Shown here one piece after another: positions 54,989 to 58,199 of a DNA stretch of 64,000 bases. The notes under the pieces were generated by a model that was not told the origin of the DNA, made no database searches, and worked only from the letters and a program-made list of their open reading frames with translations. The stretch is from NCBI RefSeq assembly GCF_003428645.1, contig NZ_QVQH01000006.1:124001-188000 (forward strand). The letters are read 5' to 3'. How positions within the stretch are numbered: position 1 is the first letter of the stretch; the number at the start of each line of letters is the position of its first letter. Source of the DNA: Geodermatophilus marinus. Lineage in GTDB: Bacteria > Actinomycetota > Actinomycetes > Mycobacteriales > Geodermatophilaceae. The translations under genes and the position numbers were made by a program.

Positions 54989-55134
54989 GGGGTCGGTGTC
55001 CTCCTGGTCGGGTGCGGGGGCGCGGCCGGTGCGGCCGCTGCCGTCCCCAACGCCGCGCCCCTGGGGATGCTTCCCCCGCCCGTCGGTGCCGGCTGGGAGG
55101 ATGGGCGGGCTGTCGAGGGAAGGCGGGGGAGCGG

Positions 55135-57159
55135 ATGTCGCAGATGGTCGGGGCGCCCGGCGCCGTCCGCGCGACCGGCGCGGAGGTGGTGCTCGCGCAG
55201 CTGGACGACGAGCAGCGCGCGGCGGCCTCCGCGGTCAGCGGGCCGGTCTGCATCCTCGCCGGGGCCGGCACGGGGAAGACCCGCACCATCACCCACCGGA
55301 TCGCCTACGGCGTGCACACCGGTGCGTTCGTGCCCGAGCAGGTGCTGGCGGTGACGTTCACCGCCCGGGCCGCGGGGGAGCTGCGCACCCGGCTCGGGGG
55401 GCTCGGGGTCGGCGGGGTGCAGGCGCGGACGTTCCACGCCGCCGCGATGCGGCAGCTGCGCTACTTCGCCCCGCAGGTGCTCGGGGGCCCGATGCCCGGC
55501 CTGGTGGAGAACAAGCTGCGGCTGGTCGCCTCCGCGGCGTCCCGGGCCCGGCTGACCACCGACCGGACCAGCCTGCGCGACCTCGCCGGCGAGATCGAGT
55601 GGGCCAAGACCACCCTCGCGACGCCGGAGGACTACCCCGCCCGGGCCCGCGCCGCCGGTCGCGAGCCGCCGTTCGAGGCGCCGGCGGTCGCCCAGGTCTA
55701 CGCCTCCTACGAGTCGGCCAAGCAGCGTGACGGCGTCCTCGACTTCGAGGACCTGCTGCTCGTCACGGCCTTCGCCATCGAGGAGCACGCCCCGGTGGCC
55801 CGCCAGATCCGGGCCCAGTACCGGCACTTCGTGGTCGACGAGTACCAGGACGTCAACCCGCTGCAGCAGCGGCTGCTCGACGCCTGGCTGGGCGGGCGGG
55901 CCGACGTCTGCGTCGTCGGGGACCCCAACCAGACGATCTACTCCTTCACCGGCGCGGACCCGGACTACCTGCTCGGCTTCGCCGACCGCTACCCCGACGC
56001 CGAGGTCGTCAAGCTGGAGCGCGACTACCGCTCGACGCCGCAGGTGGTGGCGCTGGCCAACAAGCTCATCGGGCAGGCGCCGCCGCGCAAGGGCCTCCCG
56101 GGGCTGCGCCTGCTCGGGCAGCGCGCCGAGGGGCCCGCGCCGCGGTTCTTCGAGCACCCCGACGAGCCGACCGAGGCCGCCGCCGTGGCGCAGGCGTGCC
56201 GGGCCCTGGTCGAGGCGGGGACGCCGGCCTCGGAGATCGCGGTCCTGTTCCGCATCAACGCCCAGTCCGAGGTGTACGAGAACGCGCTGAGCGCGGCCGG
56301 TGTGCCGTACGTGCTCCGGGGCGGCGAGCGGTTCTTCGAGCGCCCCGAGGTCCGGGAGGCCGTGCTGCTGCTGCGCGGGGCGGCGGCCGGTGGTTCGGAG
56401 CCGGGCGCCCTGGTGCCCACCGTCCGCGACGTGCTGGCCTCGACCGGCTGGGTCGAGCACCGCCCGCCGCCGGGTGGCGCCGCGCGGGACCGGTGGCAGT
56501 CCCTCGCCGCGCTCGTCGACCTGGCCGTCGACCTGGTCGCCGAGGACCCGACCATCGACCTGCCCGGGTTCGTCACCCACCTCGCCGCCCGGGCCGACGC
56601 CCAGCACGCCCCGACCGTGCAGGGGGTCACCCTGGCCTCGATGCACGCGGCCAAGGGCCTGGAGTGGGACGCCGTCTTCGTCGTGGGCCTGGTCGACGGC
56701 GTCCTCCCGATCGCCCAGTCGCTGTCGCGGCCGGAGGCGGTCGAGGAGGAGCGGCGGCTGCTCTACGTCGCGGTCACCCGGGCCCGCGAGCACCTGACGC
56801 TCTCCTGGTCCCTGGCCCGCAACCCCGGGGGGCGCCGGTCCCGGCCGCGCAGCCGCTTCCTCACCGGCCTGGTGCCCGAGTCCGCGCCGACCGCCGCTCC
56901 CGCCGCGCGCCGGCAGAAGCGGGCCAAGGTGGTCCTCGAGGGGGAGGCCGGCGAGCTGTTCGAGCGGCTCCGCGCCTGGCGCAGCGCCACCGCGCAGGCG
57001 GCGTCCGTGCCGGCCTACGTCGTCCTCACCGACGCCACGTTGCAGGCGATCGCGGAGAGCCGGCCCGGCACCCTGCGGGAGCTGGCCGCGCTGCCGGGGA
57101 TCGGGGCGCGCAAGCTCGAGCTCTACGGCGAGGACGTCCTCGCCACGGTGAGCGCTTGA
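55135..57159 (+). CDS. uvrD2: UvrD2 SF1 helicase with HRDC domain
   Basis: A 674-residue SF1 helicase. Motifs: Q-motif LDDEQRAA, Walker A GAGTGKTRTI (about 43), II DEYQDVN (about 235), III GDPNQTIYSFTGA, V MHAAKGLEWD (about 503), VI VTRAREHLTLSW (about 543). An HRDC domain ends the protein (about 595-670, VPAYVVLTDATLQAIAE to LPGIGARKLELYG). Mycobacterial UvrD2 has a tetracysteine module in the linker; here that linker contains no cysteine. UvrD2 is an essential 3'-5' DNA helicase in M. tuberculosis. ATG 55135 is in-frame and directly preceded by GGGGGAGCGG. Confidence 0.92.
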   Translation: MSQMVGAPGAVRATGAEVVLAQLDDEQRAAASAVSGPVCILAGAGTGKTRTITHRIAYGVHTGAFVPEQVLAVTFTARAAGELRTRLGGLGVGGVQARTFHAAAMRQLRYFAPQVLGGPMPGLVENKLRLVASAASRARLTTDRTSLRDLAGEIEWAKTTLATPEDYPARARAAGREPPFEAPAVAQVYASYESAKQRDGVLDFEDLLLVTAFAIEEHAPVARQIRAQYRHFVVDEYQDVNPLQQRLLDAWLGGRADVCVVGDPNQTIYSFTGADPDYLLGFADRYPDAEVVKLERDYRSTPQVVALANKLIGQAPPRKGLPGLRLLGQRAEGPAPRFFEHPDEPTEAAAVAQACRALVEAGTPASEIAVLFRINAQSEVYENALSAAGVPYVLRGGERFFERPEVREAVLLLRGAAAGGSEPGALVPTVRDVLASTGWVEHRPPPGGAARDRWQSLAALVDLAVDLVAEDPTIDLPGFVTHLAARADAQHAPTVQGVTLASMHAAKGLEWDAVFVVGLVDGVLPIAQSLSRPEAVEEERRLLYVAVTRAREHLTLSWSLARNPGGRRSRPRSRFLTGLVPESAPTAAPAARRQKRAKVVLEGEAGELFERLRAWRSATAQAASVPAYVVLTDATLQAIAESRPGTLRELAALPGIGARKLELYGEDVLATVSA

Positions 57160-57224
57160 TCCCCTGCTTTCCGTGACGGCGAACGGGTGACGGGGCTCAC
57201 ACCTCGCCCGCCGGGTCAATTGCG

Positions 57225-57254
57225 TTGACCGCCCTCGCGGGGCCGCCCTACTGT
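57225..57254 (+). promoter_or_regulatory. Promoter of whiB7 leader (TTGACC-N18-TACTGT)
   Basis: A -35 hexamer TTGACC (57225-57230) and a -10 TACTGT (57249-57254) with an 18-base spacer. The AT-richer TCAATT lies just upstream of -35, where WhiB7 is known to favour AT-rich DNA at its own promoter. Transcription would start near 57261, giving a leader of about 515 bases. Confidence 0.65.
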
Positions 57255-57343
57255 CCTCATCGCGCCTGGGGGAGTTCCCGGGCGCGCCAGACCCCGGTCC
57301 CGGCGCCCGCGCCGGCACCCGATCCCCGGAGAGGAGGGGAACG

Positions 57344-57634
57344 ATGATCACCACGATGACCGCTCTCGTCCCCTCCGCGGCCTCCTGGACGGGGAACCTC
57401 GCCGCGCGTCCGGCCGATCTCCAGGCCCCGTGCCCGGCCGCTCGTCTGCGCGCCCTGCCGCCCGTCGGTGCCGTCGCCCCCGAGGTGTTCGGCATCGCGC
57501 CCACCGCGGGTCGCCCCGACGGAACCGCCGTGCCCTCCGTGCCCGTCGCCGCCCAGTTCGGCACCCGTGAGCAGTCCTACACCCAGCACGACACGACCCC
57601 CGGGATCCACTCCCCGCGGAGACCGCTGAGCTAG
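57344..57634 (+). CDS. Leader ORF upstream of whiB7 (putative regulatory)
   Basis: A 96-residue open frame starting at an ATG with a strong GAGAGGAGGGG Shine-Dalgarno site. The product (MITTMTALVPSAASW...) resembles no family I know and is low-complexity in parts. Its stop codon lies in the loop of a 5-bp hairpin (TGAGC-TAGC-GCTCA, 57627-57640), 20 bases before the terminator-like stem. Codons 11-14 include an 11-base copy of one terminator arm. Position and features suggest a translated attenuator for whiB7, as known for whiB7/wblC leaders in mycobacteria and Streptomyces; function is inferred. Confidence 0.55.
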   Translation: MITTMTALVPSAASWTGNLAARPADLQAPCPAARLRALPPVGAVAPEVFGIAPTAGRPDGTAVPSVPVAAQFGTREQSYTQHDTTPGIHSPRRPLS

Positions 57635-57653
57635 CGCTCACCAGGTCCTCCTC

Positions 57654-57689
57654 GAGGCCGCGGAACCCGAACCCCGGGTCCGCGGCCTC
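57654..57689 (+). terminator. Attenuator-like terminator in whiB7 leader
   Basis: A stem of 11 perfect pairs (57654-57664 with 57679-57689) plus 3 inner pairs (CCC/GGG, one bulged A) and a 7-base loop, followed by TCTCTCGTT. It lies 20 bases after the leader ORF stop and 88 bases before the whiB7 GTG, so it would end transcription before whiB7 unless prevented. Confidence 0.75.
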
Positions 57690-57777
57690 TCTCGTTGCAG
57701 GCCGCGACACCCGGCCCGACCTCCGGTCGGCGGTTCCCCGCCGGCCGTGGACGAGACGAGTACGAGGAGGAGCGGCA

Positions 57778-58116
57778 GTGCAGCAGGCGATCGACCGCCC
57801 GTCGTCCCACCGCCGGCCGGGGCTCCCCCGGACCGGGGGCCCCCTGCCCCGACGGCCCGTGCGGGTTCCGCCGGCGCCGGTGCGCCGGCCCCTGCCGTGC
57901 CGGACCGACCCGGACCTGTGGTTCGCGGAGAGCCCGGCGCTGCTGGAGCAGGCCAAGACGCTCTGCGCGGAGTGCCCGGTCCAGGCGGCCTGCCTGGCCG
58001 GCGCCCTGGACCGCGGGGAGCCGTGGGGCGTCTGGGGCGGCCAGATCTTCGAGCGCGGGGTGGTCATCCCGCGCAAGCGCCCGCGGGGACGTCCCCGCAA
58101 GGTCATCGCCGCGTGA
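57778..58116 (+). CDS. whiB7: WhiB7-type Fe-S transcription factor
   Basis: A 112-residue WhiB protein. Four Cys ligands of the 4Fe-4S cluster are in PCRTDPDLWF (about 41), CAECPVQAAC (about 62-71), and the GVWGG turn follows (about 84). The AT-hook RGRPRK near the C-terminus marks the WhiB7 subclass, the activator of intrinsic antibiotic resistance genes. The N-terminal ~38 residues are Arg/Pro-rich. GTG 57778 has GGAGGAG 5 bases upstream. The neighbours uvrD2 and an AarF-type kinase are the same as for M. tuberculosis whiB7 (Rv3197A). The 3' end lies in a 26-bp repeat. Confidence 0.93.
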   Translation: MQQAIDRPSSHRRPGLPRTGGPLPRRPVRVPPAPVRRPLPCRTDPDLWFAESPALLEQAKTLCAECPVQAACLAGALDRGEPWGVWGGQIFERGVVIPRKRPRGRPRKVIAA

Positions 58117-58199
58117 GCGGCGGGACCGGCCTCGCCGCGTGAGCGGCGGGACCGGCCTCGCCGCGTGAGCGGCGGGACCGGCCGCGCCGCGTGAGCGGT
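58107..58199 (+). repeat. 26-bp tandem repeat (3.5 copies) over the whiB7 stop codon
   Basis: Copies start at 58107, 58133, 58159 and 58185 (partial). Each contains GCCGC-GTGA-GCGGC, a 5-bp hairpin with a 4-base loop, so the array makes a row of hairpins just after whiB7. The first copy holds the last codons and stop of whiB7. The array may act as a terminator. Confidence 0.9.

Follow-up and report, generated by a model that had tools for sequence, protein, structure and literature searches.

As judged from its sequence, the leader of whiB7 in Geodermatophilus marinus is a conserved transcription attenuator with two mutually exclusive predicted RNA folds, and this arrangement extends across the family Geodermatophilaceae and much of the order. 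In our structural model the conserved antiterminator is formed by the last ~11 codons of an upstream open reading frame (uORF) together with the hairpin around its stop codon, which pair with the left arm of the terminator. The analysis itself establishes the conservation of the leader, the predicted pairings and their covariation, and the conservation of a basic motif, +X+ (Arg/Lys-X-Arg/Lys), in the leader peptide. We regard the overall explanation, a uORF-coupled whiB7 attenuator with a +X+ sensor peptide, as probably right; its attenuator step appears likely, with only modest room for doubt, and ribosome arrest at the +X+ motif is plausible, at about even chances. WhiB7 is the master switch of actinomycete intrinsic resistance to ribosome-targeting drugs, and with the antiterminator strand and the arrest-like motif located, the question of what the uORF senses comes down to a few point-mutation tests.

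Organisation of the whiB7 leader

All features of this locus described in the present section lie on the forward strand. The regulated gene, whiB7 (57778–58116), begins with a GTG codon and its product matches the WhiB family in Pfam (E = 8.7e-15); the search of NCBIfam gave no match for the WhiB7 protein. Its translation ends in an RPRGRPRK tail, which we take to be the AT-hook that marks WhiB7. The leader adjoins a gene for a UvrD-type helicase with an HRDC domain (uvrD2-like, 55012–57159), given here as context only.

The promoter proposed in an earlier, sequence-only reading of this DNA was found at 57225–57254 and is composed of a −35 element TTGACC (57225–57230), an 18-nt spacer, and a −10 element TACTGT (57249–57254). 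The −10 element is preceded by TCAATTGCG, in place of which many congeners have TTAATTGCG. The leader ORF with a strong Shine-Dalgarno site that this reading had described corresponds to a uORF of 96 codons (57344–57634), which starts at the ATG at 57344 behind GGAGAGGAGGGG and ends with the TAG codon at 57632–57634. As the same reading had it, the stop codon sits in the loop of a hairpin (UGAGC-UAGC-GCUCA, 57627–57640). The terminator-like stem that follows the uORF could likewise be located, with 57654–57664 as the left arm and 57679–57689 as the right arm; together with the TCTCGTTG tail it makes up the predicted intrinsic-type terminator (57654–57699). RNA of the terminator region folds with z = −4.99 (57620–57700), and the shorter stretch 57650–57700 with z = −6.37.

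A consensus scanner run over 57150–57800 reported neither a promoter nor a terminator. Its cut-offs are at least 4/6 matches in the −10 hexamer and at least five T in the eight bases after a stem, and its silence is explained by TACTGT matching at 3/6 positions and by the TCTCGTTG tail being too T-poor. We obtained no Rfam match at gathering scores in the window (the whole 64-kb stretch of DNA that was analysed), and the uORF protein matched no known family in Pfam or NCBIfam.

Conservation of the leader in the family

We searched 112 genomes of the family for WhiB7 and identified a WhiB-type match in all of them (112/112, E ≤ 0.001). Usable upstream DNA was available for 102 of the 112, the other 10 being left out because the upstream sequence was missing or the only match was to a paralogue. 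The terminator stem was kept in every one of these 102 leaders, in 100 by a strict left-arm pattern and in two with CAGG rather than GAGG at the base. Its sequence, GGCCGCGG (left arm 57654–57664), hardly changes from one family leader to another. Many leaders of other actinomycete families have this stem too, or a GGCC-type stem like it, a degree of conservation stricter than base pairing alone needs.

A uORF was called in 100/102 family leaders, with an AGGAGG-like Shine-Dalgarno site and a stop codon 20–28 nt before the terminator arm; the two uncalled leaders (G004 and G065) did not satisfy the uORF rule, though both show an open frame. The length of the G. marinus uORF, which had been considered long for such a leader, proved to be ordinary: family uORFs span 63–134 codons (median 102, n = 100) and those of 30 other families 43–172 codons (median 83, n = 89). 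A promoter pattern of the type TTGAC-N17–21-TANNNT was present in 88/102 family leaders, in one of them (G105) far upstream only. Ten of the 14 leaders lacking this type of promoter are from congeners, and the alignment shows TTGCGCC as the −35 element in several.

The predicted antiterminator and its covariation

RNAalifold applied to alignment A1 returned the terminator and a two-pair hairpin with no covarying pair, and the terminator stem itself lends no covariation support because it is nearly invariant. Given this result, the antiterminator was tested by folding RNAs cut just beyond the left arm and loop of the terminator, the state in which the polymerase would present them, and by means of a covariance model trained on 40 of the 102 leaders. 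The cut RNA of G. marinus was predicted to form one nested hairpin, in which CGGG.UCC (57601–57608) pairs with GGA.CCCG (57662–57669), 57613–57624 pairs with 57644–57657, and the stop-codon hairpin (57627–57640) forms the tip. The predicted 5′ strand of the antiterminator (57601–57624) corresponds to uORF codons ~86–94, and its 3′ strand (57644–57669) shares sequence with the left arm and inner stem of the terminator. This helix is imperfect in G. marinus, with internal mismatches and an energy of −34.9 kcal/mol.

The same architecture was recovered in the minimum-energy folds of the cut family RNAs, where the upper helix between the uORF strand and the upper left arm (at least 5 nt) formed in 100/102 and the lower helix (at least 6 nt) in 102/102. 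We also folded 63 leaders from other families of the order, 10 of which had no recognised terminator; in 51 of the other 53, upstream sequence captured 6 nt or more of the left arm. The full-length minimum-energy fold holds the terminator in 86/102 family leaders, and the choice between the two folds must therefore be kinetic and be made during transcription.

Covariation supports the predicted pairing. In alignment A1, two-sided changes in the lower helix and the stop-codon hairpin together number 45, compared with 11.2 ± 3.1 in shuffled alignments, whereas pair types are no more numerous than in the shuffles (19 versus 20.3). Alignment A3 is composed of 57 matches to the model (38 leaders from the family, 18 of 29 offered from other families at E ≤ 0.02, and one match on the reverse strand). 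It has two-sided changes in 21/28 pairs and 138 such cells against 35.0 ± 5.7 in shuffles (0/500 as high), an effect size that is somewhat flattered since A3 was fitted to the covariance model; no register shift comes near the covariation of the predicted pairing. Searched against the G. marinus genome, the model gave one strong match of 84.7 bits, the next being at 24.0 bits (E = 0.64). It retrieved 19/63 leaders of other families at E ≤ 0.01 and, in a class-wide search, matched 9/197 genomes, six of them outside the order of G. marinus, so that it misses most whiB7 leaders.

The duplicated 11-mer

An attenuator with two competing pairings had been proposed from the sequence of this leader alone. 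Its class, its coupling to the uORF and the existence of two exclusive folds are upheld by their conservation; the strand assigned to the antiterminator is not, since the conserved one is the 3′ end of the uORF rather than an 11-mer nearer the start. The observation behind that assignment is correct: TCCGCGGCCTC, the right arm of the terminator (57679–57689), recurs exactly at 57374–57384, in uORF codons 11–14 (SAAS). This exact 11-mer arose in 5/4000 dinucleotide shuffles of the leader. Some internal 11-mer duplication was present in 240/1000 shuffles of such GC-rich DNA, and the one observed is accordingly notable only for hitting the terminator arm.

According to the explanation built on this repeat, the upstream copy would act as the antiterminator by pairing with the terminator left arm, and the ribosome would mask or free it. 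The two segments share exact 11-nt complementarity, the arm sequence is rare in shuffles, and the best duplex energy in G. marinus is stronger for the surroundings of the 11-mer (−33.9 kcal/mol) than for the uORF 3′ end (−28.9 kcal/mol). Against these points, the site has a different sequence in all 25 other congeners for which a uORF was called, mostly GCCCCCGCCGGGG or a near variant. Across the family an upstream copy of the arm was found over 11 nt in 2/102 leaders and over 10 nt in 12 more, at differing positions. The partner also lies ~270 nt away, inside the translated region, and a nested, covarying alternative is available. We rejected the 11-mer as a conserved antiterminator on account of the differing congeners and the rare and shifting copies, and consider this explanation very improbable; the copy at 57374–57384 is probably fortuitous. 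Its pairing is predicted to be thermodynamically feasible in G. marinus, where an additional species-specific role is possible.

In most congeners GCCCCCGCCGGGG occupies uORF codons 9–12 (peptide APAG), and it is absent from the corresponding segment of G. marinus (57368–57380). Ten of the 14 upstream arm copies fall in a single genus (g9), within RLRGL codons. In these ten genomes (for example, leaders L087 and L093 on the minus strand and L098 on the plus strand) the copy of the right arm spans 10 nt, and a peptide motif coincides with a possible RNA pairing.

A basic motif in the leader peptide

The leader peptides were analysed as uORF cores, that is, the peptide minus its last 16 residues. 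We identified the +X+ motif in 94/100 family cores, compared with 33.9 in composition-preserving shuffles, and in 48/53 non-redundant cores, compared with 16.7; six of the 100 uORFs have no +X+. The shuffles ignore relatedness, for which the non-redundant cores and the family weighting used below are partial remedies. No other spacing of basic residues was enriched in the 100 cores, adjacent pairs being present in 36 (33.9 in shuffles) and the next two spacings in 23 (33.4) and 30 (33.0). Arg-Leu-Arg (RLR) itself was found in 60/100 family uORFs against 2.3 in shuffles.

In G. marinus RLR is encoded by 57443–57451 (codons 34–36) and represents a candidate site of drug-dependent ribosome arrest. 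In the 60 family uORFs that carry it, RLR lies between codons 25 and 62, 96–240 nt before the stop codon (median 153), and the antiterminator 5′ strand of G. marinus begins 31 nt before the stop. Comparisons within genera showed that +X+ residues are kept as Arg or Lys in 734/842 cases (87%), compared with 846/1820 (46%) for other Arg and Lys residues, and other residues are identical in 13585/28875 (47%). The coding-like ORFs of the window showed no +X+ enrichment (90/156 windows of 80 residues versus 86.6). Frame +2, being saturated, offers no control for the motif.

A second peptide motif, GT-[GAR]-[LMV]-[PS], often following Gln, was identified in 67/100 family uORFs and is represented in G. 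marinus by GTAVP (57521–57535). It recurs from Geodermatophilaceae to distant actinomycete families.

The motif beyond the family

The comparison was extended to leaders from 12 other families of the order and from other orders, which together with the G. marinus family gave 189 uORFs from 31 families. Thirty of the 119 other leaders were left out, comprising 17 without a recognised terminator, eight without a called uORF and five that were too short or could not be placed. When each family was given equal weight, +X+ was present in 22.6/31 families against 10.5 ± 1.7 in shuffles (0/500 as high), and in 21.7/30 against 10.3 without the G. marinus family. Adjacent pairs (11.4 versus 10.8) and the next spacing (7.8 versus 10.4) were not enriched. 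The result was similar when only the part of the peptide between 70 and 16 residues from its end was used (19.8/31 families versus 9.2), where errors in the start codon matter little.

Variants of the motif in other families include RER, KLR, KHR, RVR and RKR. Outside the G. marinus family RLR itself shows hardly any enrichment, occurring in 3/52 uORFs against 0.9 (60/1000 shuffles as high) and, in another set, in 1/45 against 0.8. The motif was absent from the sampled uORFs of four families (f16, 0/5, and 0/6 in another set; f27, 0/2; f12, 0/1; f52, 0/1) and sparse in two (f5, 1/3; f10, 2/5).

A named set of leaders was also analysed. Of its 80 records, 15 from Geodermatophilaceae and a short one were left out beforehand; 28/64 loci were then dropped, 24 for want of a recognised terminator and four of a called uORF. 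In this set +X+ was present in 29/36 uORFs, including 18/19 from Nocardia, and RLR in the five Nocardia peptides listed. Weighted by genus, the motif reached 8.1/12 against 3.9 (1/400 shuffles as high); adjacent basic pairs were also raised here, to 6.5/12 genera against 3.8 (7/400).

Alternative explanations

The uORF could be read as an ordinary small protein, with the terminator merely separating two transcription units and no ribosome-dependent switch. Its long open frame and the mean GC3 of 0.91 in the uORF cores speak for this reading. Differences between the cores of six close pairs, however, are spread evenly over codon positions 1, 2 and 3 (47, 62 and 48), unlike those of an ordinary protein, which argues that most of the uORF peptide is without ordinary protein constraint; moreover, the spacing between the uORF stop and the terminator is almost constant, and the end of the uORF covaries with the terminator arm. 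We consider this explanation highly unlikely. We view in the same way Rho-dependent polarity, according to which Rho rather than an intrinsic terminator would end transcription of untranslated uORF RNA. The T tract after the whiB7 leader stem is weak, and Rho shapes some Mycobacterium leaders, to go by the title of D'Halluin 2023 as cited in excerpts of PMC13236596. Under this mechanism, however, blocking translation would be expected to lower whiB7, the opposite of the induction reported for whiB7/wblC.

A more serious alternative, which we regard as a real but lesser possibility, concerns the peptide motif within the attenuator: +X+ may be unrelated to drug arrest and be kept for another function of the peptide or at the RNA level, for instance because the RLR codons pair with the terminator arm. 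In ten g9 genomes and the only g4 genome, the RLRGL or RFRGL codons do contain a 10- to 11-nt copy of the arm. Enrichment of the second motif (7.8/31 families versus 0.2) indicates that the peptide carries more than +X+, and in family uORFs the two-apart spacing is also raised, more weakly, for Gly (89 versus 68.5) and Thr (84 versus 70.6), with Pro and Ser depleted. Frame +1 likewise has a slight excess of +X+ (89 versus 77.0) and of adjacent pairs (86 versus 77.6). An RNA reason is at odds with the coding of the motif: 11 different 9-mers encode RLR in family uORFs, 34 of the 40 family uORFs that lack RLR use another +X+ (for example, RPR, RPK, KRR or RER), and the variants of other families do not resemble the terminator arm. 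Among basic residues, furthermore, it is only the two-apart spacing that is enriched in the family and family-weighted sets, adjacent pairs being raised as well in the named set.

Proposed mechanism

We infer transcription of the leader from its promoter, translation of the uORF, termination, and a response of the leader to drugs. In the normal state of the proposed attenuator, a ribosome would trail RNA polymerase through the uORF and reach the stop codon in the apical hairpin. There it would cover this hairpin and the antiterminator 5′ strand (57601–57624), so that the terminator (57654–57689) would form and whiB7 would be off. If the ribosome stalled or slowed earlier in the uORF, or did not initiate, the strand at 57601–57624 would be left free; together with the stop-codon hairpin it would capture the terminator left arm and inner loop (57644–57669) once these were transcribed, allowing read-through into whiB7.

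The long uORF would serve as the sensor, and macrolide- or ketolide-bound ribosomes would be expected to arrest at RLR (codons 34–36). With RLR 96–240 nt and the antiterminator strand 31 nt before the stop, such an arrest would be far enough upstream to leave the strand free, and motif and geometry together suggest that a ribosome stalled by a macrolide or ketolide would switch whiB7 on. For actinomycetes at large we tentatively propose, at slightly less than even chances, that the whiB7/wblC leader peptide may be a nascent-peptide drug sensor rather than a generic gauge of translation speed. It would keep two motifs, +X+ and GT-[GAR]-[LMV]-[PS], in an otherwise drifting uORF; drugs of the exit tunnel, macrolides and ketolides among them, would arrest ribosomes at +X+, and the uORF 3′ end would disarm the terminator.

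Relation to known systems

The primary paper on the whiB7/wblC uORF attenuator is that of Lee, Lee and Roe (2022; Mol Microbiol 117:179). Excerpts of other papers describe uORF-mediated attenuation of whiB7/wblC in Mycobacterium and Streptomyces, in which the position of the ribosome chooses the fold (PMC11550727, PMC10727445, PMC13393426, PMC13236596), and the uORF and terminator of the whiB7 leader appear in excerpts of Dinan 2014 (PMC4128351). The arrangement in these excerpts is like that found here, with the same gene, a uORF followed by an intrinsic terminator, and an antiterminator formed from overlapping uORF and terminator sequence. The present analysis differs in addressing the Geodermatophilus-type leader and in deriving the antiterminator strand, its covariation and the +X+ and GT-[GAR]-[LMV]-[PS] motifs. 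The ilvB1 leader of Mycobacterium tuberculosis resembles the mechanism proposed here in that, by the excerpted account, a ribosome at the uORF stop blocks the antiterminator and an earlier stall permits it; it belongs to a different gene with a different uORF, and senses branched-chain amino acids through regulatory codons (PMC13236596).

The drug-dependent part of the proposal has its closest likeness in ErmDL, which also carries Arg-Leu-Arg in a leader peptide before a gene for resistance to ribosome-targeting drugs. In the excerpted text, the ErmDL site at which both telithromycin and erythromycin arrest ribosomes is Arg6-Leu7-Arg8, ribosome profiling identifies +X+ as the most frequent site of telithromycin arrest, and RLR is not strictly required for arrest by erythromycin (PMC8298421). 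Arrest on ErmDL occurs at codon 7, near the start, as described for an ermD reporter, whereas in G. marinus RLR occupies codons 34–36 of a 96-codon uORF, which would act through transcription attenuation. The attenuator class is thus already known, and a conserved motif resembling a drug-arrest site in its sensor peptide is possibly new. Among the matches listed, we recognised no title or opening of an abstract on +X+ in whiB7/wblC uORFs; subscription papers, Lee 2022 included, lie outside the scope of that statement, and novelty is not claimed.

Other features of the locus

Between the terminator and the start of whiB7 there is a second GC-rich hairpin (CCGGTCGGCGG...CCGCCGG, 57715–57750), which looks conserved in congeners. 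RNA from 57700 to 57760 folds at −33.4 kcal/mol (z = −1.91), and a role of the hairpin in whiB7 translation or in pausing is possible. At the other end of the gene, a 26-base tandem repeat (58106–58198; 3.6 copies, 98% matches) starts in the last codons of whiB7 and runs downstream, with the whiB7 stop codon inside its first copy.
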